Shown piece after piece: positions 1,354 through 30,962 of a stretch of 33,243 nucleotides of DNA (positions within the stretch are counted from its first letter, which is position 1; the number at the start of each line of letters is the position of its first letter). Source of the DNA: Verrucomicrobiota bacterium (GTDB lineage: Bacteria > Verrucomicrobiota > Verrucomicrobiia > Palsa-1439); contig PLZV01000045.1 in the NCBI GenBank assembly GCA_003152315.1, positions 1 to 33,243 on the forward strand, read 5' to 3'. The notes below the pieces were generated by a model. It was not told the origin of the DNA. It worked only from the letters and a program-made list of their open reading frames with translations, and did no database searches. A program made the position numbers and the translations under genes.

Positions 1354-1375
1354 AAGGCTGAATTGTGTCCCCCGC

Positions 1376-2437: not shown

Positions 2438-2444
2438 AAGGGAC

Positions 2445-2765: not shown

Positions 2766-2772
2766 GGCCGCG

Positions 2773-2792
2773 CCGGGCGTGTCCGGTTTTTT
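2773..2792 (+). terminator. Possible weak Rho-independent terminator
   Basis: A short GC stem (CCGGG at 2773-2777 with TCCGG at 2782-2786, one G-T pair) is followed directly by six T residues (2787-2792), and then a second T run. It lies just after the SMR-like gene and before the second kinase. The stem is only five pairs, so it would at most reduce read-through into the second kinase, kdpD and kdpE. Confidence 0.35.
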
Positions 2793-2862
2793 GATGTTTT
2801 TTTAGCACGTCGGCCCCGCCATTTAATTACCCGACCAGTCAGAAGCGTGGGATAGTAAGACT

Positions 2863-3930
2863 ATGAAAACCACCACGCTGAGCCCGCTGGAAGAGGTGTC
2901 CTGCTGCCGCGAGGTAGCGGAATATCACGCGCCGGTGAATTCCCGAGGGGGCGAAGAACTTCACCCCGGAGACATCCTTGATGATCGTTTTCTGATTACC
3001 GAAGTGATCAGCCGCAGCGGCATGGCGATGATTTTCAAGGCGCAAGACATGCGTCACGACCACGCCAACGTCGCGATCAAAGTGCCGCATCTGGCCTGCG
3101 AAAGTGACCCCGGGTCTTTTGCGCGCTTCCGGCGCGAGGAAGAGATCGGGCTTAAGCTCGACCACCCGTTTATCCTGAAATTCATTCCGGTTGACGGACC
3201 AAAGAGCCGTCCTTATTTGGTCACCGAATACCTGCGCGGCAGCACCCTGGCGCATCTGCTGGACGCGATGCATCCGTTGCCCGAGAAAGACGCGCTGAAG
3301 ATCGCCAGCCTGCTTTGCGAAGCGGTGCAGTACTTGCACGACGAAGGGGTCATTCATCGCGACCTCAAACCGCAAAACGTCATGATCGGTTGCGACGGGA
3401 CAATCCGCCTCCTTGATTTCGGGCTGGCCGTCGGCGCGGACACGCGGCGCGTCACTTTTCCAGGACTTACGCCGGCGATGGGAACACCCGATTACATGGC
3501 GCCAGAGCAGGTCAAGGGCAAACGTGGCGACGAACGCACAGATATCTACAGCCTCGGCGCAATTCTGTATGAAATGCTAACCGGGATGACGCCCTTTGAA
3601 GGCGATCATCCATTGGCGGCGATGAATGCCCGCTTGCTCGGGGATCCTGTTGTCCCGCGCAAACTGAATCCGTCGCTCTCTCCGCAGGCTGAGGAAATCG
3701 TCCTGCGCGCCCTGGAACGAGAATCTACCCGGCGGTATCCCAGCGCCGTGGCGATGCAAGCACACCTGGACCTGCCCGACCAGGTGTCTGTGACCGGTCG
3801 CGCGGAGCGGGCACATTCGCCCGCGCCATGGCGCGTGTGGCTCCGACAATACCGCACCGTCGCGCTGGCGCTGGTGGTTCCCGTGGTCGTGCCGGTGGCG
3901 GTGGCCGTGTACCTGTTGCTCCGTCAATGA
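2863..3930 (+). CDS. Membrane-anchored Ser/Thr protein kinase
   Basis: A Hanks-type kinase of 355 residues, clearly a paralogue of the one at 1376: the two share 'HPGDILDDRFLI'/'CPGDTLDGRFRL', 'KFIPVDG', 'TEYL', 'DIYSLG' and the C-terminal layout. Catalytic residues are present: Lys73 ('VAIK'), 'HRDLKPQN' with Asp167, DFG at 185-187 and 'YMAPEQ' at 211-216. The Gly loop is degenerate ('ISRSGMAMIF', only one Gly kept). A C-terminal membrane helix (about 332-353) ends the protein, so again there is no extracellular sensor. It has the HRD arginine that its neighbour lacks. It follows the SMR-like gene by 97 bases and precedes kdpD by 38. Likely arose by tandem duplication; substrate unknown. Confidence 0.9.
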   Translation: MKTTTLSPLEEVSCCREVAEYHAPVNSRGGEELHPGDILDDRFLITEVISRSGMAMIFKAQDMRHDHANVAIKVPHLACESDPGSFARFRREEEIGLKLDHPFILKFIPVDGPKSRPYLVTEYLRGSTLAHLLDAMHPLPEKDALKIASLLCEAVQYLHDEGVIHRDLKPQNVMIGCDGTIRLLDFGLAVGADTRRVTFPGLTPAMGTPDYMAPEQVKGKRGDERTDIYSLGAILYEMLTGMTPFEGDHPLAAMNARLLGDPVVPRKLNPSLSPQAEEIVLRALERESTRRYPSAVAMQAHLDLPDQVSVTGRAERAHSPAPWRVWLRQYRTVALALVVPVVVPVAVAVYLLLRQ

Positions 3931-3968
3931 GTTCTTGTGAACAAGGTGCGACTGGCTAGAATGCCCGC

Positions 3969-6650: not shown

Positions 6651-7333
6651 CCGCCGAGCGTACGGTGCTGGTGATCGATGATGAACCGCCGATTCGCCGG
6701 CTGCTGCGGTTGACGCTGGAGCCGCAGGGTTATCGCGTTTTCGAGGCGGACAACGGGCAACTGGGCCTGCAGGAAGCGGCGGCGCGTCGACCGGATGTGA
6801 TCGTCCTGGATTTGGGATTGCCCGACATGGATGGCTTGACGGTTTTGAAGCGGCTGCGGGAATGGAGCCAGACGCCCGTGCTGGTGTTGTCGGTGCGCGA
6901 CCGCGAAGCGGACAAGGTGGCGGCGCTCGATAATGGCGCGGACGATTACCTGACGAAGCCGTTCGGGACGGGGGAACTGCTGGCGCGGATGCGGGCCGTG
7001 CAACGCCGCACGCCCGATGCGCAGGAGGAACCGGTCTTCATGAGCGGGGACCTGACCGTGGACCTGGCGGGGCGGACGGTGACGGTGAAGAAGAAGGAAG
7101 TACACCTGACGGCGACCGAGTACGCGTTGTTGCGCGAGTTGGTGCGCCATGCGGGGAAGGTCGTCATGCACGCGCAACTCCTGCGGGCGGTGTGGGGGCC
7201 GAACTCCGAGGGCCAGTCGCAGTATCTGCGCGTGTACATCACGCACTTGCGCAAGAAGTTGGAGACCAGCACGAGCGGGAAGTTGATCCAGACGGAGCCG
7301 GGCATTGGGTATCGGTTGCTGGCGAGTGAGTAA
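6647..7333 (+). CDS. kdpE: Response regulator KdpE (OmpR family)
   Basis: Partner regulator of KdpD: once phosphorylated it binds DNA and activates the kdp operon. It has 228 residues. The receiver domain (about 5-118) has the acidic pair Asp11/Asp12, the phospho-accepting Asp55 in 'VIVLDLGLPD', the switch residue Ser82 in 'VLSVRD' and Lys104 in 'YLTKPF'. The winged-helix output domain (about 128-225) shows 'LTATEYALLRELVRHAGKVV' and 'YLRVYITHLRKKLE', as in OmpR/KdpE. The ATG overlaps the kdpD stop by four bases. It is the last gene of the kdp run; the next gene has its own promoter. Confidence 0.97.
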   Translation: MTAERTVLVIDDEPPIRRLLRLTLEPQGYRVFEADNGQLGLQEAAARRPDVIVLDLGLPDMDGLTVLKRLREWSQTPVLVLSVRDREADKVAALDNGADDYLTKPFGTGELLARMRAVQRRTPDAQEEPVFMSGDLTVDLAGRTVTVKKKEVHLTATEYALLRELVRHAGKVVMHAQLLRAVWGPNSEGQSQYLRVYITHLRKKLETSTSGKLIQTEPGIGYRLLASE

Positions 7334-8865: not shown

Positions 8866-9009
8866 CACCACCCGTTGGGGATGCTGGTGTTCCAATTTCA
8901 TTGAGTTTCCCTGCCTTGGCGGCTACACTGCGACGGAGTCTGCGATTACTATTTTGCGGGCGTGAGTTGTAGGGTATCGCTTCTTCAAGAGAAGGATGGG
9001 ACGGGTCGG

Positions 9010-10422
9010 ATGATCGGTTGCGAATTAAACATCTTGGGGACATCGCGGTGTTCTTCCTTGTCCCCGCACCGGCGACGTCTTCGAGTCGGGAGTTTTTGCG
9101 GGCTCATCCTGTTGTTGCCGGTGGTTGCTGCCCAGGCGGCGACCGTGACGAAGATTTCCGCCGGAGTTTACCACAGCATTTTTGTAAGGTCTGATGGCAG
9201 CCTTTGGGGTATGGGGGGCGACCCGCATGGCCAGTTGGGCGATGGCTTCAGCGTCGCCGGCACCAATGCTCCGGGGCAGATCGCAACAAGCAACGTCACG
9301 GCGATTTCCGCCGGAGACTTTCACAGCCTTTTTGTAAAGTCCGATGGCAGTCTTTGGGGCATGGGCGCAGATTTCCTGAACCAGTTGGGCCTCGGCACGA
9401 CCAATGATGTCCTCATCCCCGAACTGATCGTATCCAACGAGGTTACGTTGATTGCCGCTGGAGCGGTCCACAGCCTTTTTCTAACGTTTCATCCGTTGAG
9501 TGGCCCGGGCAGTTACTGGGCGATGGGTTACAACGCGAGCGGCCAGTTGGGCGACGGCACTACCAACAATCGTGCCTTGCCGGAGCAGGTCCTGTCCAAT
9601 CTATCAGGCAATGTTTTCTCGGTGATTGCGGCCGGAGAGCAGCACAGCCTTTTGATCAAGCCGGATGGCAGTCTCTGGGTCACGGGATGGAACGGTTACG
9701 GCCAGTTGGGTGACGGCACCACGACGAACCACCACCTTCCCGAGCTGATCGTGGCCAGCAATGTCACAGCGATTGCCGCGGGCGGAGACCACAGCCTTTT
9801 CGTGAAATCCGATGGCAGCCTTTGGACCATGGGGAACGATGCCGTCGGCGAGCTGGGTGACGGCACCAACGGCACTATTCACACAACCCCTGAACTAATC
9901 GTATCCAACAACGTCACGGCCGTTGCGGCGGGGGGCGCCCACAGCCTTTTTCTGAAGTCCGACGGCAGCCTCTGGGGGATGGGCCGGAATGTTTATGGCC
10001 AGTTGGGTGACGGCACGACCAACAACCGCTCCCTACCCGTGCTGATCGTGTCCAACAACGTCACGGCGGTTACGGCCGGATTTTTCCACAGCCTGTTTAT
10101 CAAGTCCGATGGCAGCCTGTGGGCCATGGGTTTCAACCAGAGCGGGCAGTTGGGCGACGGCACGACGAACAACCGCGTCACCCCAGTGCAGGTCGTCCCG
10201 CCGCCGCCGCAAATTCTCTCGGTGAACCTGGCGGGCGTTAGTTTTGAGATGAGCTTTCTGTCGGTTTCCAGCCAGAGCTACACGGTCCAAGCCAACCTGG
10301 ACCTGACGACGACGAACTGGTTTGCGTGCACGAATGTTTCCGGCAACGGCCTGATCATGCCGGTAACTGTACCCGTCAGTAACGGCGTCCCGCAGGAATT
10401 CTTCCGCGTTAGAGAGCCGTGA
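9010..10422 (+). CDS. Secreted RCC1-repeat (beta-propeller) protein
   Basis: This protein of about 470 residues has a long signal peptide (basic 'PHRRRLRVGS', hydrophobic 'FCGLILLLPVVAAQA', cleavage after AQA). Seven RCC1-type repeats of about 50 residues follow, each with 'AAGxxHSLFxKSDGSLWxMGxNxxGQLGDGTTN', which should close as a seven-bladed propeller. After a proline run (PPPPQ), a C-terminal module of about 75 residues contains 'SYTVQANLDLTTTNW' and ends 'PQEFFRVREP', a tail found on many secreted verrucomicrobial proteins. The ATG at 9010 is preferred; an in-frame GTG at 8962 would add 16 residues. The repeats are highly alike, suggesting recent expansion. Probably exported; the ligand cannot be told from sequence. 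Confidence 0.85.
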   Translation: MIGCELNILGTSRCSSLSPHRRRLRVGSFCGLILLLPVVAAQAATVTKISAGVYHSIFVRSDGSLWGMGGDPHGQLGDGFSVAGTNAPGQIATSNVTAISAGDFHSLFVKSDGSLWGMGADFLNQLGLGTTNDVLIPELIVSNEVTLIAAGAVHSLFLTFHPLSGPGSYWAMGYNASGQLGDGTTNNRALPEQVLSNLSGNVFSVIAAGEQHSLLIKPDGSLWVTGWNGYGQLGDGTTTNHHLPELIVASNVTAIAAGGDHSLFVKSDGSLWTMGNDAVGELGDGTNGTIHTTPELIVSNNVTAVAAGGAHSLFLKSDGSLWGMGRNVYGQLGDGTTNNRSLPVLIVSNNVTAVTAGFFHSLFIKSDGSLWAMGFNQSGQLGDGTTNNRVTPVQVVPPPPQILSVNLAGVSFEMSFLSVSSQSYTVQANLDLTTTNWFACTNVSGNGLIMPVTVPVSNGVPQEFFRVREP

Positions 10423-18071: not shown

Positions 18072-18252
18072 GATTGCCCAAACCCCAGCGCTTCCAGCGC
18101 ACGGCTGGACAAACTTGGGACATTCGTGCACCATGGATGCCACTCTTGAATTCACGCGTTTCCCACGGAGCAAAAAACGCAACTCGGTCACCTAAGTGCG
18201 CGACCAGGGATGGCATTTTGTGATTACGACATCGAAGTCATCTACAGCCAGC

Positions 18253-19734
18253 ATGCTGGCGCTGGGGCAACACAGGAAATCGACTTTGAAGGAGTTGAAT
18301 TTCGCGACCGCACACGAACTGGCAGCGGCCATACGTGAACGCCGCGTCTCGGCAGTTGAGGTGTTGGACGCGCACCTTGCCCGCATAGCCCGGTACAACC
18401 CGGCCCTGAATGCAATTGTCACGCTCAACGAGGAAAATGCACGCGTGAGAGCTCGGGAAGCGGACGCAGCCCTTGCACGAGGTGAGGTCTGGGGGCCCTT
18501 GCACGGCGTGCCGGTGACTATCAAGGACTCTTTCGCCACGGCCGGTCTGAGGACAACCAGCGGCTTTCCACCGTTGGCCAACTATGTTCCCGACTCCGAC
18601 TCCACGGTGGTTGCACGTCTGCGGGCAGCCGGTGGTATCGTGCTGGGGAAAACCAATCTTCCCCTGCTGGTGCATGGCTTCCAGAGCGACAATCCCGTGT
18701 TTGGTCGAACGAACAACCCATGGGACCTGGCGCGAACCCCGGGCGGTTCGACCGGGGGCGGTGCCGCAGCAATCGCGACCGGTTTTTCTCCGCTTGAAGT
18801 GGGAAGCGACTATGGCGGCTCGGTGCGCATTCCGGCGCATTTTTGCGGCATCTATTCACTGAAACCAACGGATAATCGCGTACCACTCACAGGCCACATC
18901 CCGGAGCTTCCGGGCCGACGAGGCGTGAGGCATTTGGCCACGCCGGGGCCTCTTGCGCGTTGCGTGCAGGACCTGGTGTTGGCGCTGCGAGTGATGGCCG
19001 GTCCGGATCCCCATGACCCGGATGTTCCACCATTGCCGCTGACCCTGGCCCCGGAACCTGCATGGAAGAATCTACGCGTCGCATGGGTCGAGGAATTTGG
19101 CGGGATACCGGTGACCCGTGACACACAGGCGGCGCTGACGAAACTGGTCACAGCCCTGCAGGAACAAGGATGTACCGTTGCCCGGCGCCTGCCGGACGGA
19201 ATCGATTTTCCAGGAATTTGGGAAACGTACGGCGAGTTGCGCCAGTGTGAAGTTGGCGGCGCGATGCCGTCGGAGTTGGAAGAAGAGTGCGCCGCAAATT
19301 TCGGGGTGCGCGCGCAGTCCGACGATCCCGAGATGCGTGGCATGGCGCGGAGGTTGAATGCGACGTTACGGCAATATACCGCCACGTTGGCGAAACGCGA
19401 CGCCTACATTGCCGCGATGGAACAGTTCTTTGAATCGTGGGATGTTCTGCTTTGCCCGGTCACTGTTGGCCCTGCGTTTGTGCATTGCGCGCCCGGCACG
19501 CCGATACCAGTGGACGACGGCCATGTGCCGTACCGTCTTGGAGGAACGGGCTATACCAGTCCGTTCAATTTGACGGGTAACCCGGTCGTTGTGCTTCCAC
19601 TGACCCGATCCAGCGGAGGACTGCCGATTGGCGTCCAAGTGGTTGGCCGACGCTGGGGCGAGATGAAACTTTTGGCAGCCGCCGAGCGGATTGCCGGGCT
19701 GACAGTTCCGTTTCAGCGCCCCCCAGGGTACTGA
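18253..19734 (+). CDS. Amidase-signature family hydrolase
   Basis: These enzymes cleave amide or ester bonds with a Ser-cisSer-Lys triad. All three are present: Lys in 'GVPVTIKDSFATAG', the cis-Ser as the Ser of 'PGGSTGGGAAA', and the nucleophile Ser in 'GSDYGGSVRIPAHFCG', followed by the usual 'YSLKPT'. The protein is about 493 residues from the ATG at 18253, which puts the first conserved block ('ATAHELAAAIRERRVSAVEV') near residue 20; an in-frame GTG at 18196 would add 19 residues. No glutamine-tRNA amidotransferase partners (gatB/gatC) are nearby and the sequence is not specially GatA-like, so a stand-alone amidase is more likely. It converges on the Mo-hydroxylase operon; a link to that pathway is only possible. 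Confidence 0.85.
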   Translation: MLALGQHRKSTLKELNFATAHELAAAIRERRVSAVEVLDAHLARIARYNPALNAIVTLNEENARVRAREADAALARGEVWGPLHGVPVTIKDSFATAGLRTTSGFPPLANYVPDSDSTVVARLRAAGGIVLGKTNLPLLVHGFQSDNPVFGRTNNPWDLARTPGGSTGGGAAAIATGFSPLEVGSDYGGSVRIPAHFCGIYSLKPTDNRVPLTGHIPELPGRRGVRHLATPGPLARCVQDLVLALRVMAGPDPHDPDVPPLPLTLAPEPAWKNLRVAWVEEFGGIPVTRDTQAALTKLVTALQEQGCTVARRLPDGIDFPGIWETYGELRQCEVGGAMPSELEEECAANFGVRAQSDDPEMRGMARRLNATLRQYTATLAKRDAYIAAMEQFFESWDVLLCPVTVGPAFVHCAPGTPIPVDDGHVPYRLGGTGYTSPFNLTGNPVVVLPLTRSSGGLPIGVQVVGRRWGEMKLLAAAERIAGLTVPFQRPPGY

Positions 19735-20271: not shown

Positions 20272-22701
20272 CTACTTCTTTGCCGGAGCTTTGGTGTGGA
20301 ACTTGTACGCATCCGGACGCCCGGCAAAACAAAGCCCCATGGACGACCCTTTCACGTCTTCGTAGGAAACCCCCTGCAATTCCAACGCCACTTTCTCTGC
20401 CGTAATTGGCATGGTCTTCATTCGCCGGCCAACCGCGTCTTCCACGGCGTTGGCGACCATTGCTGCCGCCGGAATCATCGTGTGTTCCGCGGCTCCACGA
20501 GCCCCGAACGGACCATCCGGCTGCGCGACTTCCACGATAATCGGAACAATCTCCTCCGGCACATCCATCGAGGTTGGTATCTTGTAATCCGTAAAATTGG
20601 CATTCATCAGTTTCCCCTTGAGGCTGTAGCGGATGTCTTCGTACAGCACCGTCGCCAACCCTTGGACGATCCCACCGACGATCTGGCCTTTAACAAGACG
20701 TGGATTGATCGCCTTGCCGGCGTCGACGGCCAGCGTGGCCTTCAGTACGCGCATCTTACCGGTTTTCTTGTCGATCTCGAGAGTGACAGCAGCGGCGCCC
20801 ACTGTGTAGTGCACGTTCGGATGGCCACCCTGACTCGTCTCCGGGTCGCTCAACGCCGAGGTGAACTCAGGCATGAATACACCGCTCCCGAGAATCGGTC
20901 CGCCGATAAAGCTCCCCTGCGACGTCTGGATGCCGTTGATGACGAAGTTTCGTAGTGGCAATTCAAAATCCACGCGGGTCCGGCATTTGACCTTCTCATC
21001 TTCAAGGTAAAGCGCGTCGCGGGCGATGCCCAGGGCCCGCTCGACGACTTCAAATATCTTCGCCCGCACATCGAGGGCGGCGGCCTTCACGGCATTGCCG
21101 CACCCCCACGTTACGTGCGAGCCAACAGTCTGCCACTCGTATGCATTGCGATCCGTGTCGGGCAATTCCACACGAATCTTCTCGATCGGCACCGTGAGAA
21201 TCTCGGCGGCAATTTGGGCCATCACGGTCATGTACCCCTGCCCAATTTCCATTCCCGAAACTCCGATGTTCAGGCTGCCGTCCTCGTTAAATTTCAGGAA
21301 AGCCGCGGACGCGGCATTGGGTGGCATTGCGGGTGCCTTCCAGAAGCAAGCGAAACCCTTTCCGATGACCTTGTTGGGGTCTTTGGAAACCTCCTTCTTT
21401 CCCCAGCCGATTTCCGTCGCAACCCGGTCGATCGATTCCATGAGGCCGCACGGGTTCATCTTCGCGCCGTACGCCAGCGTGTCGCCTTCGCGAATGGCAT
21501 TCTTCCTCCGGAAATCAACCGGATCCATGCCGAGTTTGTGCGCCATCCGGGTGATGTGGGATTCCAATCCAAAATGGAACTCGGAATACCCAAAACCGCG
21601 GTACGGACCGCTCGGTGGGAGGTTGGTATAGACGCAGACCGAATCGATTTTGACGTTGGGGATCCGGTACGGGCCCGTGGCAGAAAGTCCGACCGCATTC
21701 ACCACATTGGCGCCGTATTCCACATAACCACCGGCATCCCAGTGCAATGAATGTTCGATCGCCGTAATCGTGCCATCCTTCTTCGCGCCCAATTTGATTC
21801 GCGCAATGACTCCCTGTCGTTGGTAGGTGTTGTAGAACTCCTGGGCCCGCGACCAGCGGACCTTGACTGGTTGACCCTTCACCATCATCGCCAATGCCGC
21901 GCCAATGATCTCCATCGACACGCCGGCTTTGCCGCCAAAACCACCGCCGACATACGGCGTCACGACACGGATGTCCTTGTGGGACAACCCGAGCGGGGCG
22001 AGCGCCTGCGCGAGGACGTGTCGTTGCGTGTAGGGCGACTGCGAAGCCGACCAGAGCGTTAGCCGTCCGGACAAATCGTATAGACCGACGATCACATGTG
22101 GTTCGATCGCACAGTGGGAATAACGCGGGACCGTATAGGTGTCTTCCAGAATAACGTCTGCTTCCTTGAACCCTTTCTCGATGTCACCCTTCCTCGTTTT
22201 ACGCCAATGGGCGATGTTCGTCCCCGCTTGCGGGAAAAACCATGGGCAACGTGTGTAATTCCCGAGATCAGGGTGTACCAACACGGCATCGTCCCGAAGC
22301 GCCTTTGTGAGATCGAGGACGGGTTCCAGTTCCTGGTAAACCACCTTTACGAGTTTCGCCGCCCGCTTCGCTGTTTTCGCGTCCCGTGCGACCACAGCAG
22401 CGACTTGTTCGCCGACAAAACGGACGCGGTCCGTTGGAAAACTGAATCGGTCCTGCATGTACAATCCGAAGCGGTACGGAAAATCCTTGCCGGTGACCAC
22501 GCGGACAACACCGGGAACCTTCTCGGCAGCCGATGTATCGATACTCTTGATCAACGCATGTGCGTAAGGGGTTTCCACGATCTCCGCGTGAAGCAACCTT
22601 GCGCCGAAATCGATGTCGTCCACGTAGGTGGCTGCCCCCGTGATTTTCTCCAACCCGTCGATGCGTTCGGGAGATTTGCCAACAAATTTAAGCGAACTCA
22701 T
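20272..22701 (-). CDS. Xanthine-dehydrogenase-family Mo-binding subunit
   Basis: Large catalytic subunit (809 residues) of a molybdenum hydroxylase that inserts water-derived oxygen into a heterocycle or aldehyde. It has the N-terminal a/b-hammerhead (about 18-130) and two Mo-cofactor-binding domains. Motifs: 'VGGGFGGKAG' (251-260), 'PYRGFGYSE' (366-374), and the catalytic Glu739 in 'GARGAAE', equivalent to the base that activates the Mo-OH. 'PYRGFG' rather than 'AYRCSFR' excludes a form I CO dehydrogenase. Its ATG overlaps the stop of the 2Fe-2S gene (ATGA). FAD, 2Fe-2S and Mo subunits are separate genes in that order. No XdhC/CoxI-type cofactor-insertion gene is in the window. The substrate cannot be told from sequence alone. 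Confidence 0.92.
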   Translation of the reverse strand: MSSLKFVGKSPERIDGLEKITGAATYVDDIDFGARLLHAEIVETPYAHALIKSIDTSAAEKVPGVVRVVTGKDFPYRFGLYMQDRFSFPTDRVRFVGEQVAAVVARDAKTAKRAAKLVKVVYQELEPVLDLTKALRDDAVLVHPDLGNYTRCPWFFPQAGTNIAHWRKTRKGDIEKGFKEADVILEDTYTVPRYSHCAIEPHVIVGLYDLSGRLTLWSASQSPYTQRHVLAQALAPLGLSHKDIRVVTPYVGGGFGGKAGVSMEIIGAALAMMVKGQPVKVRWSRAQEFYNTYQRQGVIARIKLGAKKDGTITAIEHSLHWDAGGYVEYGANVVNAVGLSATGPYRIPNVKIDSVCVYTNLPPSGPYRGFGYSEFHFGLESHITRMAHKLGMDPVDFRRKNAIREGDTLAYGAKMNPCGLMESIDRVATEIGWGKKEVSKDPNKVIGKGFACFWKAPAMPPNAASAAFLKFNEDGSLNIGVSGMEIGQGYMTVMAQIAAEILTVPIEKIRVELPDTDRNAYEWQTVGSHVTWGCGNAVKAAALDVRAKIFEVVERALGIARDALYLEDEKVKCRTRVDFELPLRNFVINGIQTSQGSFIGGPILGSGVFMPEFTSALSDPETSQGGHPNVHYTVGAAAVTLEIDKKTGKMRVLKATLAVDAGKAINPRLVKGQIVGGIVQGLATVLYEDIRYSLKGKLMNANFTDYKIPTSMDVPEEIVPIIVEVAQPDGPFGARGAAEHTMIPAAAMVANAVEDAVGRRMKTMPITAEKVALELQGVSYEDVKGSSMGLCFAGRPDAYKFHTKAPAKK

Positions 22702-23171
22702 GCGCGTTTCCCCGCTTTCTTACCGACGGCCACAATGGCATCAATGATTGGTTCGTAACCAGTGCAACGACACAAGTTGCCCGAGATGGCCTCCTTGACT
22801 TCATCTTTGGACGGGCTCGGGTTCTTGCCCAGTAGTTCAGTCGCCGAGAGCACCATACCGGGCGCGCAGAATCCACATTGGAAGGAGTTGTACTTGAGCA
22901 GAGACTGCTGCACAGGCGTCAGACCCGATTGACTCAATCCTTCAAGCGTCGTGATTTCATGACCGTCTGCTTCGACAGCGAGAATGAGGCAACTGCGAAC
23001 GGTCTTGCCATCCAGGAGGATCGTGCACGCACCACAGTCACCGCGTTCGCAACCAATCTTCGGGCTCTTCACGCCCAGCACTTCCCGCAAGACATCGAGG
23101 AGAATGTCGCTGGGCTCGACAGCAAGGCTACGGATTTCATTATTGAGTGTTACGGTGATCCGTTTCGTCAT
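22698..23171 (-). CDS. Molybdenum hydroxylase 2Fe-2S subunit
   Basis: Small electron-transfer subunit of 157 residues, the standard length. It carries all eight cluster cysteines: Cys41, 46, 49 and 61 in the plant-ferredoxin-like domain ('GCERGDCGACTILLDG') and Cys99, 102, 134 and 136 in the helical domain ('QCGFCAPGM', 'NLCRCTGYEPI'). Electrons should pass from the Mo centre through both clusters to the FAD subunit. It starts nine bases after the FAD subunit gene and overlaps the Mo subunit gene by four bases, so the three are made together. Confidence 0.95.
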   Translation of the reverse strand: MTKRITVTLNNEIRSLAVEPSDILLDVLREVLGVKSPKIGCERGDCGACTILLDGKTVRSCLILAVEADGHEITTLEGLSQSGLTPVQQSLLKYNSFQCGFCAPGMVLSATELLGKNPSPSKDEVKEAISGNLCRCTGYEPIIDAIVAVGKKAGKRA

Positions 23172-23180
23172 GGCCGCCTC

Positions 23181-24071
23181 CTATATCACGCTGGTGCCAT
23201 ACGCGGGGCCCGAGCCCGTTATTCGCTCGACCGCGGCCCGGACTCCTCGCTCCAGCATGACACCCACCATGTGCATCCGGTATTCCTTGGTTGCACGGAT
23301 ATCGGTGATCGGGGCAATTTCTTCGGGCAAAAGTCGCACCGCTTCCTGAATCAGATCGTCCGACAACGCGCGGCCTTCCAACAAAGCTTCGATTCTTTCC
23401 CCGCGAATCGGGCGTGGCGCGACCGAGCCGAAGGAAATCCGATAATGGTTATCGGCATACGCGAGAACCGTCACGCTGGCTTGCGCGAGATCTTCGCCTT
23501 CGTACCTGCGCAGCTTGACGAAACAGGCGCCATGTTTCTTCTTGGGCAGCGCTACCGCTATGCTGATTGCGATTTCGCCGCGCTTCAGCACGGTCTTGCG
23601 CGGACCGAGAAACCAATCGCGCAGCGGCACCTTTCGCCTGCCCGACGGGCCGGCCACCAGCACTGCGGCATCGTAAACCAACAGAACCGGACCGCTGTCG
23701 CAGCAGGGGACCGCCGAGCAGATATTGCCAACCATCGTGGCCCGATTCCGAATGCCCACAGAAGCCACCCACCCGGTCATCTCCCAAATCACGGGAAACT
23801 TTTTCGCCACAACGGTGGAGTCTCGTAGGTCGCTGAACGTGACCAGCGCGCCAATTGTGAGGACCCCATTCTTAAATTCGATCTTATCCAGGCCGGGAAC
23901 GCCCTTGATGTCCACCACGATGTCGGGCGTCACCATGTCTTCGGCGATGAGAGTGATCAAGTCAGTCCCGCCGGCGAGAACGCGGGCGCGCGTTCCGGAG
24001 CGCGCAAGCGTTTTGACCGCCTCGCGCAGTGTGCGGGGCTTCACGTAGTCAAACTCATGCGCGATTGCCAT
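23181..24071 (-). CDS. Molybdenum hydroxylase FAD subunit
   Basis: Medium subunit of 296 residues that takes electrons from the 2Fe-2S subunit and passes them to an acceptor. The FAD-binding PCMH-type domain shows 'VLAGGTDLITLI' and 'TMVGNICSAVPCCDSGPVLL', the counterpart of the usual 'GGNIANASPAGDS...'; the C-terminal CO-dehydrogenase flavoprotein domain has 'KLRRYEGEDLAQASV' and 'SFGSVAPRPIRG'. The ATG at 24071 is chosen because AAGGAGG lies five bases upstream; the open frame continues to 24212 but overlaps the cyclase gene. The cysteine pair 'PCCDS' in the flavin loop is unusual. It begins ten bases after the cyclase gene. Confidence 0.93.
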   Translation of the reverse strand: MAIAHEFDYVKPRTLREAVKTLARSGTRARVLAGGTDLITLIAEDMVTPDIVVDIKGVPGLDKIEFKNGVLTIGALVTFSDLRDSTVVAKKFPVIWEMTGWVASVGIRNRATMVGNICSAVPCCDSGPVLLVYDAAVLVAGPSGRRKVPLRDWFLGPRKTVLKRGEIAISIAVALPKKKHGACFVKLRRYEGEDLAQASVTVLAYADNHYRISFGSVAPRPIRGERIEALLEGRALSDDLIQEAVRLLPEEIAPITDIRATKEYRMHMVGVMLERGVRAAVERITGSGPAYGTSVI

Positions 24072-24081
24072 GATGACCTCC

Positions 24082-24910: not shown

Positions 24911-26323
24911 TCATTTCTTGGTTAATCGTCTGGCCAACCCCGCGAAAGCTTTCCGGAATGGCTCGGCGGGCGCGCTCAACACGCCGGCGCCAATCTGGCC
25001 AACGCCCGGTTCCTTGTGGGCGACGCCGGTATCGATGAATGGCAGGATATTCTTTTCGACGACCTTGATGGCGTCGATGCCCGTTGGCGTGCCGCGGAAG
25101 TTCAGATAGGGAATCTGGTAGGTATTGTTCTCGCCAGCGGTGACCTCGTACATCTGTCGCGTGTAACGAATCGCATCGTCGCTGTTACCGCCAACGAACT
25201 GGACAATGGCCGGTGCCGCCGCGATGGCGAATCCACCCAAGCCATTCGTTTCTGTGATCGCGCTGTCGCCAATGTCGGGATTCGCGTCGGCTCGCGTATA
25301 CCCCGGGAAGAACAAGGCGTCGGGCACATCTGCCGGACCGGTGAACCATTCATCACTCGTGCCGGAGAGTTGGATGCCGAAATCGGTGCCATTACGGGCC
25401 ATGACGACCAGAACACTGCTATTCTTGACGCCACGCGCCGCATCCAATGTGACTTTGGAAGCGGGCATGGAAAGGTTCAGGAAAAAGTGATCGTTGTGGT
25501 TGACGAACTCCAGGACTTCCGCAGCGACGGCTGGAACATCACAGGTCGTCACAATCGCCGGCGCAATCGTCCGATAGAAAATAGAAGTTGCCGCGCGGTT
25601 GCGGTTATGGACCTCATCTCCCATGTGGAGCGCCTGGGCGATGATATTCTTGAGGTCGATCTTCCCCAGTTTTGCCACCGCTTTCTTCAACACCGGATAC
25701 AGGGTTCCCTCCATCCAGCGGAGCTTCTGAATCACCGGCTCACCATACGCGCCGTACCGTAACACTTTGCCGAGCCCCTCGTTCAACGTGCAGTACGCAA
25801 AATTGCCGTGCGCCTCGTTTTTTAGCACGAATACCGGCATCGATGGCGAGATAATGCCCGCCATGGGGCCGACGGAAGCGTGTTCGTGACAGGGAGAGAA
25901 CTTGATGGCACCGGATGCGGCGAGCCGCTGTGCATCCTCGACAGTTTCAGCCTTCCGCTCGTACAATAACGCGCCAATCATCGCGCCACGCATTGGCCCG
26001 CACATCCGATCCCACGTAATCGGCGGTCCCGCGTGCAGCAGCATGTCCGACTTCATCCCCGGAATGACATCGATCGCCCGTTCCAAGCCGATGAGGTGCG
26101 GCATTCCGCTCAGGATGATCTTCAAGACTTCGGCATTAGCTCTTTCAATGGCGGGGCGAAACATTTTCACGCGGTTCGCCGATTTGGCATCGACCTCGAT
26201 GGGGGGCTTCCAGTCGACCTGCACGGACATCGCATGAGCATCATCCAGCGCCTGTTTGAAGGCTGACAAGCCGATGTTAATGACCTTCAGATCACTGCCG
26301 AACAGTTGATTGATGGACGTCAT
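24911..26323 (-). CDS. DUF1116 protein (AllG/YlbE/YahG-like)
   Basis: A 470-residue protein of the DUF1116 family, near the length of E. coli YahG. In E. coli the DUF1116 protein YlbE (AllG), with FdrA (AllF) and YlbF (AllH), has been reported to form oxamate carbamoyltransferase, which makes carbamoyl phosphate from oxalurate during allantoin breakdown. Family-like segments include 'MRGAMIGALLYE', 'FSPCHEHASVGPMAGIISPS', 'GMPHLIGLERAIDVIPGM', 'GDEVHNRNRAATSIFYR' and 'FFLNLSMPA'. Its ATG overlaps the FdrA stop by four bases. The order AllH-AllF-AllG, all coupled, argues for one complex. Membership is confident; the exact substrate is inferred only. Confidence 0.85.
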   Translation of the reverse strand: MTSINQLFGSDLKVINIGLSAFKQALDDAHAMSVQVDWKPPIEVDAKSANRVKMFRPAIERANAEVLKIILSGMPHLIGLERAIDVIPGMKSDMLLHAGPPITWDRMCGPMRGAMIGALLYERKAETVEDAQRLAASGAIKFSPCHEHASVGPMAGIISPSMPVFVLKNEAHGNFAYCTLNEGLGKVLRYGAYGEPVIQKLRWMEGTLYPVLKKAVAKLGKIDLKNIIAQALHMGDEVHNRNRAATSIFYRTIAPAIVTTCDVPAVAAEVLEFVNHNDHFFLNLSMPASKVTLDAARGVKNSSVLVVMARNGTDFGIQLSGTSDEWFTGPADVPDALFFPGYTRADANPDIGDSAITETNGLGGFAIAAAPAIVQFVGGNSDDAIRYTRQMYEVTAGENNTYQIPYLNFRGTPTGIDAIKVVEKNILPFIDTGVAHKEPGVGQIGAGVLSAPAEPFRKAFAGLARRLTKK

Positions 26324-27852
26324 TTCCTTTCCCGGTATCGAATAATCTGACCTGCCAGGTTGCAGGCGGCGGCGTTTGATGGCGTCACAATTGCACCGGC
26401 CTTTCGCAGGGCGGCCTCAACACGTCCCCGGTTCTGCGGGTCATGATTGGTTCCGGTGACTGAACAGACAACGGAAACTTTGCGCGACGCCTGCCGAACC
26501 ACACCCGAGAGTTCGGCTGCCGGATCAGGATGGGCGCCGTAGCCGAGCACGACATCCAGCAGAATGACCGCGGTCTCCGGGTCGGCCGCTTCGACGAGGA
26601 TGCGGCGATTCCGTAGCGAGTAATCGATCATGGGATGCGGACGACCGACGGTGAATTCGTCTTCGCCCAAATCGATTACAGAGTGTTTCTGGCTGACGAG
26701 AGAATCTCGAAGCTGCTTCGTATTTCCTACAGGAGCATTTGAGTACACACCCGTCAGCAGGGTTTTGAAAAGGACTTGAGCCTCTGCGCAGAACGTACCG
26801 CCACTGAAGAGCCCGCGCACATATTTCTGGTTCCGCTTACGTTTGCCGGCTTCGCGCTTCGCGGTCCGCAGGATCTCTTTGTCCCGCGCAACGAGTCGAG
26901 AGGCGACTTCATCGCGTGGTTTTCCCTGTGACAGGGCCACGGCGATCAGGGCCGCTTCTTCGAGAGTGGAGGGACGATCTTCTTGTGTGGAGGCACCGAC
27001 AAACGAGGTCACGATGGGCTTGCGGATGGTCTTCGCCAGCTTCTCGATCCGGCGCAGGACGTCTTTGTGCGGCGGTTTGGAAACGAGAAGAATGACGCGT
27101 GTTTGTTCGTCCTTCGCCAGGGCTTTCAGCCCCTCCAGAAACATGATTCCGCCGACCTCTTGCTTCACATCGCGGCCACCAGTGCCGATGGCTTGCGAGA
27201 TCCCCGCGCCGGCGTTGGAGATAATGCAGCTTACTTCCTGTAACCCTGTGCCGGCGGCGGCGACGATGCCGATGTTTCCCCGATTGACGACGTTTGCGAA
27301 GGCGAGGGGAACGCCGTTGATGATGGCCGTGCCGCAATCCGGACCCATGACCAGCAGCCCGCGTCTTTGGGCAAACTTCTTCAGAGCAATTTCTTTCTCA
27401 AGGGGGACGTTATCCGAGAAGAGCATCACGTGCAGACCGTTCTCGAGAGCGCGCATCGCTTCATCGCCAGCGTATCGGCCGGCAATCGAAATCAGCGCGA
27501 GATTGGCACCGGGAATTAGATTGAGCGCACCAGCCAGGCTTGAGGGACGGGATTCGCCTCCAGTGGTGATTGTGTTGATTGCCTTCTTGAGAAGACCGTC
27601 GACTGCAGCCAGGGCGGATTGCGTCGCGGTTTCGGTTTCGCCCTTTACCGCGACCAGAAGATCGGTGTCGCTTGCATTATCAAACTTGGCACTCAGCAGG
27701 CCACTGGAGTTCAGGATCGCTCTGTTGGATTTTGTCCCCATCACCACGGCGGCGTCGATTACGCCTGGCAGGGCCGTGATCTCCGTTCCCACGCGCATCA
27801 AGGTGACGGAATCGAAGTAGGCGCCCTTGCGGATCTGGCCGGCAACGTTCAT
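26320..27852 (-). CDS. fdrA: FdrA-family (AllF-like) acyl-CoA-synthetase-fold protein
   Basis: A 510-residue protein related to the alpha subunit of succinyl-CoA synthetase. FdrA hallmarks are 'LLVMGPDCGTAIINGVPLAF' (about 168-187), the N-terminal 'KGAYFDSVTLMRVGTEI', 'GLHVMLFSDNVPLEKEIALK', 'ILLVSKPPHKDVLRRI' and a C-terminal domain with 'VRGLFSGGTFCAEAQVLF' and 'ILLDVVLGYGAHPDPA'. In E. coli FdrA is AllF of the carbamoyl-transferring AllFGH complex; the Rossmann-like domains probably bind the phosphate or carbamoyl intermediate. Its start overlaps the DUF2877 stop and its stop overlaps the DUF1116 start, each by four bases. Confidence 0.9.
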   Translation of the reverse strand: MNVAGQIRKGAYFDSVTLMRVGTEITALPGVIDAAVVMGTKSNRAILNSSGLLSAKFDNASDTDLLVAVKGETETATQSALAAVDGLLKKAINTITTGGESRPSSLAGALNLIPGANLALISIAGRYAGDEAMRALENGLHVMLFSDNVPLEKEIALKKFAQRRGLLVMGPDCGTAIINGVPLAFANVVNRGNIGIVAAAGTGLQEVSCIISNAGAGISQAIGTGGRDVKQEVGGIMFLEGLKALAKDEQTRVILLVSKPPHKDVLRRIEKLAKTIRKPIVTSFVGASTQEDRPSTLEEAALIAVALSQGKPRDEVASRLVARDKEILRTAKREAGKRKRNQKYVRGLFSGGTFCAEAQVLFKTLLTGVYSNAPVGNTKQLRDSLVSQKHSVIDLGEDEFTVGRPHPMIDYSLRNRRILVEAADPETAVILLDVVLGYGAHPDPAAELSGVVRQASRKVSVVCSVTGTNHDPQNRGRVEAALRKAGAIVTPSNAAACNLAGQIIRYRERK

Positions 27853-28688
27853 GAAACCCCCATTTGACCGCGTACTGTGAGCAAGAATCCCGTTCCCAAA
27901 TCGGCGCCGGAACTTCCGCCGATGGCCATGAGTCTCGCCGCCGACTTCCTCACCGTCTCCTCGCTTTCGTGCATCAGCGCGAGGACCAGATCTTTCATGC
28001 GTCCGAAAAGCAAGCCGCGGCGGGCGAGATCCAGAAACGAATTGGAGAATATGTTGCCGGCTCTTGCTGTTCGAAACACGTCATTCGCAATCCTTTGGTA
28101 ATCCTGCCCTCGTAGTTGCTGCAAAAGGTTCAAACCAATGAGCAGCCCGGCAATAAAATCGTCGCCACTCGGGGTCAGCCCCAACCCACAGCCTCTCAGG
28201 GTTCGAACTCCATCCAGTAGGTGACCGTTCATCATCTGGTACACGCCGCGACGGATCTGATCGGTAAACGCCCGTTCAAATCCCGGTCGGAAATTCGTGG
28301 TTCGCTGTTCATCGAGAAGAAACGCGAGACTCTTCGGCGAAGACGCAGTTTGCAGTTCTTCCGCAAGGACGGCCAGATTGTGATGGAAGAGACGCGGCTC
28401 CCAATTGTCGAGGGCGACGGCTGAACGATAATAATCCTGGTCCGTGAATTCAAAACGATTGCTCCCAAGGACGACCGTGTTCGCCGTAATCATCAGGGGC
28501 GCAGGCTCGTGGGTTGCCGATTGACCCTCGAAATCACGAATGACGATGTTGAGTGGCCCGTCGCCGATTTCTTCGCTGACTACAGAAATAAGCTGTTTGT
28601 CGCACAAGAAGTTGACAGCATGTCGAAATCGGGAGTGGAACGGGTAGGTTCCTTCCTTTACCTGATCTCCAATGCTCACCAGGGTCAT
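27849..28688 (-). CDS. DUF2877 protein (AllH/YlbF-like)
   Basis: A 279-residue protein of the DUF2877 family, close to the 271 residues of E. coli YlbF. Conserved segments are 'LRGCGLGLTPSGDDFIAGLL' (about 164-183) and the C-terminal 'GGSSGADLGTGFLLTV'; the N-terminal part is beta-rich with 'GPLNIVIRDFEG' and 'ITANTVVLGSNRFEF'. YlbF is the third subunit (AllH) of the oxamate carbamoyltransferase complex. It overlaps fdrA downstream and the OB-fold gene upstream by four bases each. No carbamate kinase follows, unlike in E. coli. Confidence 0.85.
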   Translation of the reverse strand: MTLVSIGDQVKEGTYPFHSRFRHAVNFLCDKQLISVVSEEIGDGPLNIVIRDFEGQSATHEPAPLMITANTVVLGSNRFEFTDQDYYRSAVALDNWEPRLFHHNLAVLAEELQTASSPKSLAFLLDEQRTTNFRPGFERAFTDQIRRGVYQMMNGHLLDGVRTLRGCGLGLTPSGDDFIAGLLIGLNLLQQLRGQDYQRIANDVFRTARAGNIFSNSFLDLARRGLLFGRMKDLVLALMHESEETVRKSAARLMAIGGSSGADLGTGFLLTVRGQMGVS

Positions 28689-29032
28689 GCCGGGTAAAAC
28701 ACCATCCCGAAGTTCTTGCTGTATTCGGCCTCACGGACGATCTCGACCTTCCCGCTGACCGCCATTCCGATCTTCGGGCTCGGAACTTTCAGTTGCCCCG
28801 TGATCCGCATTCCGTTTTCCAACTCAACGATTCCCAGGCTCAACTTGGCGACGTTGAAGTCCGGAGGAAGATTGTGGACGGTTGTGAACGTCAGCAGTTT
28901 GCCGTTCTTCGGAAGGGCAACCGTGTTAAACTCGAACGGTTCCAGATTTCCGCACTTTTTGCACACCATGCGAAATGGATAATGAAGTTGGCCGCATTTC
29001 TTGCATTGATAGGCGTAGATTTCGAGAGCCAT
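28685..29032 (-). CDS. Zn-ribbon/OB-fold protein (DUF35), thiolase partner
   Basis: This 115-residue protein has a rubredoxin-like zinc ribbon with Cys10, Cys13, Cys24 and Cys27 (C-x2-C-x10-C-x2-C), then an OB fold ('GKLLTFTTVHNLPPDF', 'LGIVELENGMRITGQL', 'IGMAVSGKVEIVREAEY'). DUF35 proteins bind CoA esters and form complexes with thiolase-fold enzymes, for example the archaeal acetoacetyl-CoA thiolase/HMG-CoA synthase complex. The ATG at 29032 has GGGAG upstream and follows the thiolase-like gene by two bases, so the two proteins almost certainly act together. It overlaps the DUF2877 gene by four bases. Confidence 0.9.
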   Translation of the reverse strand: MALEIYAYQCKKCGQLHYPFRMVCKKCGNLEPFEFNTVALPKNGKLLTFTTVHNLPPDFNVAKLSLGIVELENGMRITGQLKVPSPKIGMAVSGKVEIVREAEYSKNFGMVFYPA

Positions 29033-29034
29033 GA

Positions 29035-30210
29035 TCAGTTCTCCCTCTTGAAGACGAGGCAAACGACATTGTTACCGAAGCCGCCGAAGTTGCAGGTGAA
29101 ACCAATCCGGGCGTCCTTCACCTGTCGTTTGTCGGCTTCGCCGCGAAGTTGCAGAACAATTTCGTGGGCTTGCCCGACACCCGTCGCCCCAACGGGATGT
29201 CCTTTGGCCTTCAGGCCACCCGACGTGTTGATGGGAAGCCTCCCGCCCAGACGGGTTTCACCCCGCTCGAGCGCAAGATGTCCTTCGCCTTTCTTGAAGA
29301 AACCAACCTCCTCGCTCTCGACAATCTCCAGAATCGTGAAGGCGTCGTGAAGCTCGGCGACATTGACGTCGGACGGACTCACGCCGGCCATCTGGAATGC
29401 CTTGGCCGCAGCACCCCGTACGGCCAGCAAGTCCGTCGGTTCCGCACGTTCATGGACGCAATGGGTGTCCGTCGCCTGCCCGACGCCGGCGAGGCGAATC
29501 ATCGGCTTATTCAATTGCTTCGCGACTTCCGCGGATGCGAGGATCACGGCAGCGCCACCGTCGGAAACCGGACAGCAATCGAAGAATCGCAGCGGTTCGG
29601 CAACATACGGGTTGTTGGTCATCGCCTCGGGGGAATCGAGGATTCCTTCGAGGGTGATTTTTTCGTGCAAGTGCGCGAAGAAGTTCAGCAATGCATTGTC
29701 ATGGTTCTTTACCGCCACCATGGCCAAATGCCGCTCGGTTACGCCGTACTTTTGCATGTAAAGACGGGTGAACATTGCGGCCAACGAGGGTAGCGTTACG
29801 CCGTAGATGTATTCGGCCAGCGGATGGGACAGCGATGCCACAACATCGGTCGCCTCAAGGTTGTTCACCTCACGCAGACGCTCCGCGGATGTGACCAGGA
29901 CGGTATCGTGAAGTCCGGAAGCCACGGCCATGAACCCTTGCTTGATGGCGGAAGCACCGGACGCGGGGCCGTTCTCAATGACTTCGGCGCCAGCGGGAGT
30001 AAGGCTCAAGGTGTCGACGACGGCGCTGGCCAGCCCGGTCTGGTGATTGAGCCGGGCGCTGCCCATGTTGGCCACGTATACATGATCGACCTTGGAGAGA
30101 CCGGCGTCCTTCAGCGCGACCATGGCAGGAAAAGCGGCGATTTCACTTAACGGGTATTCGAGCCGGGTAAAGCTCGTGATCCCGATACCGACGACGTAAA
30201 CCTCGCGCAT
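29035..30210 (-). CDS. Thiolase-fold protein without nucleophilic cysteine
   Basis: This 391-residue protein belongs to the SCP2/archaeal-type thiolase branch. It keeps the two His motifs ('AELHDAFTILE' and 'SGGLKAKGHPVGATG') and the final 'CNFGGFGNN' loop. At the nucleophile position, where family members read 'E-N/A-x-C-A-S-G', this one reads 'IENGPASGASA': the Cys is Pro82. A normal Claisen/thiolysis mechanism through an acyl-cysteine is therefore not possible. It is coupled to a DUF35 partner, and the reading frame is intact, so it is not decay. It may bind acyl-CoA, act by another mechanism, or be structural. The ATG at 30210 is two bases after the upstream gene's stop. Confidence 0.88.
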   Translation of the reverse strand: MREVYVVGIGITSFTRLEYPLSEIAAFPAMVALKDAGLSKVDHVYVANMGSARLNHQTGLASAVVDTLSLTPAGAEVIENGPASGASAIKQGFMAVASGLHDTVLVTSAERLREVNNLEATDVVASLSHPLAEYIYGVTLPSLAAMFTRLYMQKYGVTERHLAMVAVKNHDNALLNFFAHLHEKITLEGILDSPEAMTNNPYVAEPLRFFDCCPVSDGGAAVILASAEVAKQLNKPMIRLAGVGQATDTHCVHERAEPTDLLAVRGAAAKAFQMAGVSPSDVNVAELHDAFTILEIVESEEVGFFKKGEGHLALERGETRLGGRLPINTSGGLKAKGHPVGATGVGQAHEIVLQLRGEADKRQVKDARIGFTCNFGGFGNNVVCLVFKREN

Positions 30211-30212
30211 GA

Positions 30213-30962
30213 TCAAGCCTTCCCTTCCTGTTTCCAACGCTGGGACATCAATGCGGTGCCCGTTGAGTCATACAGCGAGCGCGTGGCTGCGAGAAGGTCG
30301 ACTGGCGCCTTCGGTGGATCGGTCGGCGGGAGAATGGCCGCCTGCGCTTTTTCGAGGAGGTGTTGCGGCACAGGGCGCCTGCCGACGACAAGTGTTTCCC
30401 GCGCTCGATTGAATAGTTCCTTCGTCAGCGCCCACGAGGGAACACCGCCGAGTTCATGCGCGATGTGGAATCGCTTCTCCAGTTCATACTCGATCATCCA
30501 TCGGCGAAATCCAATCGGCGACTCGGCCACGACGAGGACTTCCTTTTGACCGATGATATCGATGTGGTACTCCATTTTCGTGGCGAAGGCGTGCGCTCCC
30601 ACGCGCAAGCCGCGCCGGAGAGCGACGGTGTGGTACGACATACCGACGTCCTTGCTCAAGAGGCGGCCATTAACGACCGCGACGAGTTCCCCGTTGATTT
30701 GCGCGACGAGGACATATTCGTCCTGAACACGATACCGATAGTAGGCCAGAAGCTCACTGTAGAGACGCGCGGCGACAACGTCGTAATAGTCACGCTCTAC
30801 GTGAATCAGGGGTTCGACATGTTGCAGAATGTCGGGGATTTCATCACGGGTCACCTGACGGATGACCATCTCCTCTCCGCCCGCGAGCATCATATACTTG
30901 GGCGGAAACGGCGGAACGGGGTTATCGACCGGACGCAGGATCTTTTCAAGGTCAACAGCCAT
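30213..30962 (-). CDS. GNAT-like protein, first gene of the operon
   Basis: A 249-residue protein. Residues about 30-170 look like a GNAT acyltransferase fold: 'MVIRQVTRDEIPDILQHVEP' as beta1-alpha1, 'YVLVAQINGELVAVVNGRLL' as beta2-beta3, then 'GLRVGAHAFATKMEYHIDII' in the place of the acetyl-CoA loop and alpha3. The canonical R/Q-x-x-G-x-G/A pattern is only loosely kept ('LRVGAHA'). The C-terminal 80 residues are unrecognised and Pro-rich. The start has GGAGGAG at 30969-30975 on the minus strand. As first gene of the operon it may modify the pathway substrate or an enzyme. The fold is a moderate-confidence call. Confidence 0.55.
   Translation of the reverse strand: MAVDLEKILRPVDNPVPPFPPKYMMLAGGEEMVIRQVTRDEIPDILQHVEPLIHVERDYYDVVAARLYSELLAYYRYRVQDEYVLVAQINGELVAVVNGRLLSKDVGMSYHTVALRRGLRVGAHAFATKMEYHIDIIGQKEVLVVAESPIGFRRWMIEYELEKRFHIAHELGGVPSWALTKELFNRARETLVVGRRPVPQHLLEKAQAAILPPTDPPKAPVDLLAATRSLYDSTGTALMSQRWKQEGKA

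Follow-up and report, generated by a model that had tools for sequence, protein, structure and literature searches.

Active site of the thiolase-like protein

The stretch of DNA analysed here (the window) covers positions 1 to 33,243 of contig PLZV01000045.1, from the assembly of a Verrucomicrobiota bacterium (GCA_003152315.1). A thiolase-fold protein of 391 residues is encoded on its minus strand (29035–30210), with a proline (Pro82) at the position of the catalytic nucleophile and an alanine (Ala290) at that of the acid/base cysteine. The open reading frame is intact, from an ATG at 30210 to a TGA at 29037–29035, confirming that the gene is full length. Pfam thiolase domains match the protein, and the NCBIfam model NF004720 ('thiolase domain-containing protein') gives 404 bits, with a cut-off of 420.

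The nucleophile motif reads ENGPASG, and codon 82 (29965–29967, minus strand) is CCC, in place of the codon for the nucleophilic cysteine. Pro82 aligns exactly with the nucleophilic cysteine in the ESACASG motif of Cys-type paralogues from related genomes (L131–L134, 42–44% identity), and the same column holds the nucleophilic cysteine of EAACASG in the structures 7yvy and 6esq. The alignment at this position is secure, as the Cys-type paralogues read HDCF at the second catalytic motif as well as ESACASG at the first. The original prediction, that the catalytic cysteine of this thiolase homologue is replaced by proline, is thus correct. Another cysteine shifted into the place of the nucleophile was ruled out, since the aligned motif contains no cysteine in any orthologue.

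The acid/base cysteine of the HDCF motif is also missing. The motif here is HDAF, with Ala290 in all 53 aligned orthologues. The Pyrococcus protein (7yvy) keeps its nucleophilic cysteine, yet it reads HDAF too. On the other hand, His288 (in HDAF), Asp289, His338 (in GHP) and Asn374 are invariant in the 53 orthologues, so the histidine motifs are intact, as had been noted from the sequence. The C-terminal cysteine loop had likewise been described as intact. Cys373 is indeed present in the window protein and is a cysteine in 43 of the 53 orthologues, but it is replaced by Val, Thr or Leu in the other 10, which rules it out as a conserved catalytic residue.

The protein therefore has the thiolase fold and the active-site histidines (HDxF and GHP), and lacks both the nucleophilic cysteine (Pro82 in 53/53 aligned orthologues, and in 84 loci in all) and the cysteine of HDCF. 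Judged by its catalytic residues, the gene product is not a thiolase; databases would call it an acetyl-CoA acetyltransferase.

Conservation among orthologues

Eighty close orthologues of the thiolase-like protein were found in 84,980 scanned species genomes, and the 79 that cover the nucleophile motif all read ENGPASG. Four more divergent orthologues from a whole-genome search (L111–L114, 54–55% identity) also have this motif, while L107–L110 of that search are loci already counted. Altogether, ENGPASG is found in all 84 motif-covering orthologues, at 54–100% identity. Averaged over the columns of the 53-orthologue alignment, identity is 77%.

By record title, the orthologues belong to about 17 phylum-level groups, including Verrucomicrobia, Actinobacteria, Elusimicrobia, Eisenbacteria, Riflebacteria, KSB1, Ignavibacteria, Planctomycetota, Deltaproteobacteria, Bipolaricaulota and Chloroflexi, among others; the genomes are mostly metagenome bins, and single phylum assignments may be wrong. 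No orthologue bearing a cysteine at the nucleophile position was found in the same gene context. The suggestion of selection for a non-thiolase function is well supported by this absence, by the invariance of Pro82 and Ala290 across these phyla and by a sister group that also lacks both cysteines (see below). Both checks proposed in advance as able to refute it were carried out, and it withstood them.

A clade of proteins without the catalytic cysteines

A tree was built of 47 proteins, comprising the Pro family, haloarchaeal plasmid proteins, ST0096 (4yzo) and Cys-type relatives. The Pro family, the haloarchaeal proteins and ST0096 form one cysteine-less clade (support 99/95), with the Cys-type proteins outside, and the sister group of the Pro family lacks both cysteines as well. 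The nucleophile motif is ENTSASG, ENTNASG or DQTSSSG in the haloarchaeal proteins and DNTSGSG in ST0096. The second protein of the window's genome (L002) joins this clade on a long branch, and its placement is unsure. Five residues, His129, Cys213, His250, Pro258 and Asn380, are common to the clade almost without exception, do not occur in the Cys-type proteins, and may belong to a rebuilt active site.

The haloarchaeal plasmid loci (L153–L165) carry thiolase-like/DUF35 pairs. Their annotation is 3-ketoacyl-CoA or acetyl-CoA thiolase, yet both catalytic cysteines are gone, with Ser or Asn at the nucleophile position, and the gene context varies from species to species. Two of the haloarchaeal genes (L157, L158) are near genes for a Mo-hydroxylase, a cyclase and a nucleobase permease, and one of them lies beside a urease operon. 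The haloarchaeal cyclase is 44% identical to that of the window. A CoA-transferase gene is located directly upstream of the thiolase-like gene in L157, L160 and L161. Other haloarchaeal relatives have other neighbours, so the clade as a whole does not belong to a single pathway.

The window's own genome encodes a second thiolase-like protein (L166, G000:C5:54000-73900), which also has no nucleophilic cysteine and carries a C-terminal extension. It is located between dihydropyrimidine dehydrogenase (PreA above the cut-off) and a transaminase, and its neighbours include a dihydropyrimidinase, a nucleobase symporter, an N-carbamoyl amidase-type hydrolase and an MMSDH-like aldehyde dehydrogenase. 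MeaB and a mutase C-domain are also found in this cluster, and the reductive pyrimidine pathway in it looks complete. As the genome has this reductive cluster, uracil need not be the substrate of the operon in the window.

The three-gene module and the predicted structures

The thiolase-like gene is the middle member of a module of three genes on the minus strand. Directly upstream is a gene for a GNAT-fold protein of 249 residues (30213–30962), and directly downstream is one for a DUF35/OB-fold partner (28685–29032) with zf-ChsH2 and OB_ChsH2_C domains and an intact Zn ribbon (C-x2-C-x10-C-x2-C). An adjacent OB-fold/Zn-ribbon gene, as in DUF35-partnered complexes, is thus present. The GNAT gene occupies its upstream position in 75/75 loci and the DUF35 gene its downstream position in 77/77, where the contig allows this to be seen. 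The thiolase-like and DUF35 genes had been described as translationally coupled. They are adjacent, but two bases separate the stop codon from the ATG at 29032, and the genes do not overlap.

The module is separate from the other pathway genes described below in 8 of 37 long loci. In two Bipolaricaulota-type genomes (L072, L074) it is near purine nucleoside phosphorylase-like genes instead of the usual operon, and in L072 also near a glutamate dehydrogenase-like gene (all named by eye). No homologue of the GNAT subunit was seen in the searched flanks of the haloarchaeal relatives, where the thiolase-like/DUF35 pair persists.

Structures were predicted as single chains. The AlphaFold2 model of the thiolase-like protein has a pLDDT of 90.6, and its best fold match is 6et9, the thiolase of the archaeal thiolase/HMGCS/DUF35 complex (Z 60.6, rmsd 1.5, 380 aligned residues). 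The next matches are PhlABC, BbsAB, MucABC, the SCP2-thiolase-like protein of Trypanosoma brucei (TbSLP), Ltp2 and Sal, with PhlC and MucABC among the best (Z about 54) and the Ltp2/Sal-type folds 6ok1 and 9myr at Z 49.5 and 48.2.

The upstream 249-residue protein matches no curated Pfam or NCBIfam family, and by sequence it resembles GNAT proteins at an E value of only 0.033. Its model (pLDDT 82.6) has a GNAT fold (Foldseek probability 1.00; VIA-align Z 14.0, rmsd 2.9 over 164 residues), and the protein has many invariant residues. Membership of the classical malonyl-CoA decarboxylase family was ruled out by the lack of a PF05292 match. No structure of that enzyme is among its listed fold matches, which in itself proves nothing.

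The operon and its linked genes

Seven further genes follow the DUF35 gene on the minus strand. The first three encode an AllH-family protein (oxamate carbamoyltransferase subunit family; 27849–28688, PF11392, 1.1e-21), an FdrA/AllF-family protein (26320–27852, NF004760 above the cut-off) and an AllG-family protein (formerly DUF1116; 24911–26323, PF06545, 1.5e-97), so that all three subunit families of the oxamate carbamoyltransferase AllFGH are present. Next is a cyclase-family hydrolase (PF04199, 24082–24900), the proposed ring-opening enzyme, and then the three subunits of a xanthine dehydrogenase-type Mo-hydroxylase, namely the FAD subunit (XdhB-like, 23181–24077), the 2Fe-2S subunit (XdhC-like, 22698–23171) and the molybdopterin subunit (XdhA-like, 20272–22701). 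The set of AllFGH, cyclase and Mo-hydroxylase genes recurs across phyla. An amidase gene (18196–19734) was rejected as a member of the operon, being on the plus strand and not observed among the conserved neighbours.

In a sample of 289 genomes from the same phylum, AllG is present in all nine that carry the thiolase-like gene and in 21 overall (Fisher p 9e-12, indicative only, as the genomes are related). The idea that FdrA/DUF1116 operons always carry the Pro variant fails, as 12 AllG genomes in this sample have no thiolase-like gene; it is the reverse that holds, with AllG in 9/9 of the Pro genomes. Of 22 module genomes, most of them selected for a module with no AllG next to it, 17 have AllG, often with the cyclase and the Mo-hydroxylase, and the five without it are draft MAGs. 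Of 51 module genomes, 43 have carbamate kinase above the curated cut-off, the window's own among them, compared to 2 of 14 controls. In a set of 43 module genomes, just one has classical malonyl-CoA decarboxylase (PF05292); the window's own genome has no match to it, which concerns membership of the family and not the reaction.

Elsewhere in the window, KdpC-, KdpD- and KdpE-like genes (204–803 and 1217–7333), with two Ser/Thr protein kinase-like genes between KdpC and KdpD (1217–2437 and 2863–3930), and an RCC1-like repeat protein with a signal-type N-terminus (8962–10422) were named by eye.

The ring opened in the proposed pathway

The AllFGH homologues (24911–28688) are found here outside the allantoin context, and are a possible ureidomalonate carbamoyltransferase. 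The allantoin pathway was ruled out as the context, as the operon contains no allantoin genes. AllFGH of E. coli converts oxalurate and phosphate to oxamate and carbamoyl phosphate (PMC11326118). Ureidomalonate, the product of barbiturase, is an analogue of oxalurate with one more carbon, and from this likeness we infer that AllFGH-type enzymes could act on it. With a Mo-hydroxylase and a ring-opening hydrolase in place of the allantoin genes, the carbamoyl donor is probably ureidomalonate and not oxalurate.

The actinobacterial loci bear on the identity of the ring. They have no cyclase and carry instead an AtzD/TrzD-family protein (PF09663, 5e-143). Compared with solved structures, this protein scores 535 bits against barbiturase and 314 or less against cyanuric acid hydrolases, and the NCBIfam cyanuric acid hydrolase model passes its cut-off on it as well. 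Several of these loci have a permease by the module, closest to UraA (271 bits). Among 50 module genomes, 34 have the window-type cyclase, 12 have the barbiturase and none has both (p 1.5e-8). As record titles place all the barbiturase genomes in the Actinobacteria, a single evolutionary event may lie behind this exclusion. Most simply, the cyclase would take the place of barbiturase. The PF04199 cyclase is mostly 69–97% identical across phyla and is a possible non-homologous barbiturase.

Overall, the gene context points to oxidative breakdown of pyrimidine or barbiturate with recovery of carbamoyl phosphate. The known oxidative pyrimidine route ends in malonate and urea, through ureidomalonase. 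In the open-licence literature searched, no papers were found on this module, on its GNAT partner, or on carbamoyl phosphate recovery from barbiturate.

Proposed function and alternatives

Thiolase catalysis has two halves, acyl transfer through the nucleophile and enolate chemistry through the oxyanion hole and acid/base residues. With the nucleophile gone, thiolysis through an acyl-enzyme is not available to the window protein. A site that keeps the histidines of the enolate half could, in theory, still decarboxylate malonyl-type thioesters or break a bond beside a carbonyl, and cysteine-less condensing enzymes do decarboxylate malonyl thioesters without a covalent intermediate. There are precedents among cysteine-less thiolase-like proteins: TbSLP slowly decarboxylates malonyl-CoA, and Sal, whose nucleophile position holds Gly, carries out a retro-aldol cleavage (PMC12329534).

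We tentatively favour, at somewhat less than an even chance, a working non-thiolase CoA enzyme that is a subunit of the GNAT–thiolase-fold–DUF35 module, within an operon that serves to break down a pyrimidine-type ring oxidatively. The retained enolate half would be put to use, and most likely a malonyl-type thioester is decarboxylated or cleaved to acetyl-CoA. Both the C3 substrate and the reaction are deduced from the gene context. The decarboxylase or lyase-type reaction suggested in the original prediction is thus our leading guess.

In the proposed pathway, the Mo-hydroxylase would produce barbiturate or a similar cyclic ureide, and the cyclase or barbiturase would open this ring to ureidomalonate. 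The AllFGH homologues would then convert ureidomalonate and phosphate to malonamate and carbamoyl phosphate, in the manner of oxalurate to oxamate, and carbamate kinase would use the latter to produce ATP. Such a pathway leaves malonamate or malonate, and as classical malonyl-CoA decarboxylase is so rare in the module genomes, the most economical role to propose for the three-protein module is to turn this C3 unit into acetyl-CoA, a step of which we are less sure. The GNAT subunit may load the C3 unit on CoA. This role is a guess, prompted by the CoA-transferase gene found in its place in haloarchaea. The thiolase-fold subunit would then remove CO2 or cleave a C–C bond without a covalent enzyme intermediate. 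The operon has no gene that would make malonyl-CoA by a known route, which counts against the proposal, as do the very slow decarboxylation by TbSLP and its different motif (YDCF), the module genomes in which AllG was not found and the loci in which the module is apart from the other pathway genes. The scheme as a whole, a three-component CoA enzyme that turns the malonyl-type remnant of a pyrimidine into acetyl-CoA and so completes an ATP-yielding pathway (Mo-hydroxylase, cyclase or barbiturase, ureidomalonate carbamoyltransferase and carbamate kinase) in many uncultivated phyla, with a urea-linked counterpart in haloarchaea, is possible, and we regard it as doubtful.

The thiolase-fold protein could instead be catalytically silent, binding a CoA ester and, together with DUF35, serving as a scaffold for the GNAT protein, which would itself carry out an acyl transfer or the reverse, an amide thiolysis. 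The GNAT protein is always the upstream partner and has many invariant residues on a GNAT-type fold, and DUF35–thiolase proteins do hold multi-enzyme complexes together in solved cases (6esq/6et9, PhlABC). However, His288, Asp289, His338 and Asn374, as well as the clade-specific His129, Cys213, His250 and Asn380, are kept with few or no exceptions, beyond the needs of a binding fold, and the thiolase-like/DUF35 pair is retained in the haloarchaeal loci, in whose searched flanks no GNAT homologue was seen. We consider this explanation unlikely. A scaffold for carbamoyl transfer, as had also been suggested, is made less likely by the AllFGH homologues, which cover the carbamoyl chemistry, and by the presence of the module in loci away from them.

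A retro-Claisen C–C lyase would act on malonamyl-CoA or ureidomalonyl-CoA, giving the acetyl-CoA enolate and carbamate, allophanate or isocyanate. Compounds of the type R-CO-CH2-CO-SCoA, with R being NH2 or ureido, fit the 3-oxoacyl-CoA geometry of thiolase substrates, the enolate-half histidines are intact, and the gene context supplies such acids. With ureidomalonyl-CoA as the substrate, however, the AllFGH-type carbamoyl recovery would be partly redundant, and to our knowledge no such enzyme is known. This reading is quite unlikely.

A retro-aldolase like Ltp2 and Sal would have the same fold, a DUF35 partner and no nucleophile, as found here. The Tyr of the YDxF motif is needed in both of these enzymes (PMC12329534), but its position is His288 in 53/53 orthologues, and a hydratase/MaoC gene was not seen among the conserved neighbours, making a retro-aldolase distinctly improbable. 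A condensing acyltransferase of the PhlABC/MucABC type, working in the synthetic direction, is very improbable. These enzymes also have three components, with thiolase-fold and DUF35 subunits, and PhlC and MucABC are close in fold. However, the PhlABC-type entry 9skm is a C88S mutant, implying a cysteine in the wild type, their KAS III-like subunit is absent here, where the third gene has a GNAT fold, and the gene context is catabolic. Finally, nothing was found in favour of a sequencing error, of gene decay or of an ordinary thiolase that uses a different nucleophile. All three are next to impossible, and the first two are ruled out, with the same proline in 83 other loci from many phyla and the high conservation of the sequence.

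If the favoured reading is correct, the cysteine-less thiolase fold has a further role, next to those in the steroid aldolases and in TbSLP, and the protein is a candidate for a missing last step of oxidative pyrimidine breakdown. The pathway would provide a substrate-level source of ATP from pyrimidines in uncultivated lineages. The thiolase-like gene marks its cluster in about 17 phyla, and no description of this cluster was found in the papers searched.

Comparison with known systems

Cysteine-less thiolase-fold enzymes with DUF35 partners are already known. In overall fold, the window protein is closest to the archaeal acetoacetyl-CoA thiolase (6esq/6et9) and the Pyrococcus protein PFC_04095 (7yvy), with Z scores of 56–61, 36–43% identity and the HDxF and GH[PA] motifs in common. 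The complex of 6esq has a DUF35 partner as here, but its third partner is HMG-CoA synthase, compared to the GNAT protein here. Both 6esq and 7yvy have the nucleophilic cysteine in place of Pro82, and 6esq also has the cysteine of HDCF in place of Ala290.

ST0096 of Sulfolobus tokodaii (4yzo), at about 39% identity, has likewise lost both catalytic cysteines (Ser and HDMA) and shares the FKKGEG and TILE stretches. It differs in having Ser at the nucleophile site, where the window protein has Pro.

The steroid side-chain aldolases Ltp2 and Sal have the thiolase fold, lack the nucleophile and need DUF35, and they cleave C–C bonds of CoA thioesters without an acyl-enzyme. In contrast to the window protein, which has His288 and no steroid context, they use a catalytic Tyr (YDHF/YDCY) in a steroid context. 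TbSLP, also without a nucleophile, binds malonyl-CoA (5ab7) and decarboxylates it slowly, but it is only 23% identical, has a YDCF motif and has no DUF35 partner.

For the pathway, E. coli AllFGH with the carbamate kinase AllK is the nearest likeness, as all three subunits have homologues in the window and carbamate kinase is present in the genome. The oxidative pyrimidine pathway is matched in the actinobacterial loci by the barbiturase homologue, the uracil-type permease and the Mo-hydroxylase. The two differ at their ends: in place of malonate and urea, recovery of carbamoyl phosphate and a CoA module are proposed here.
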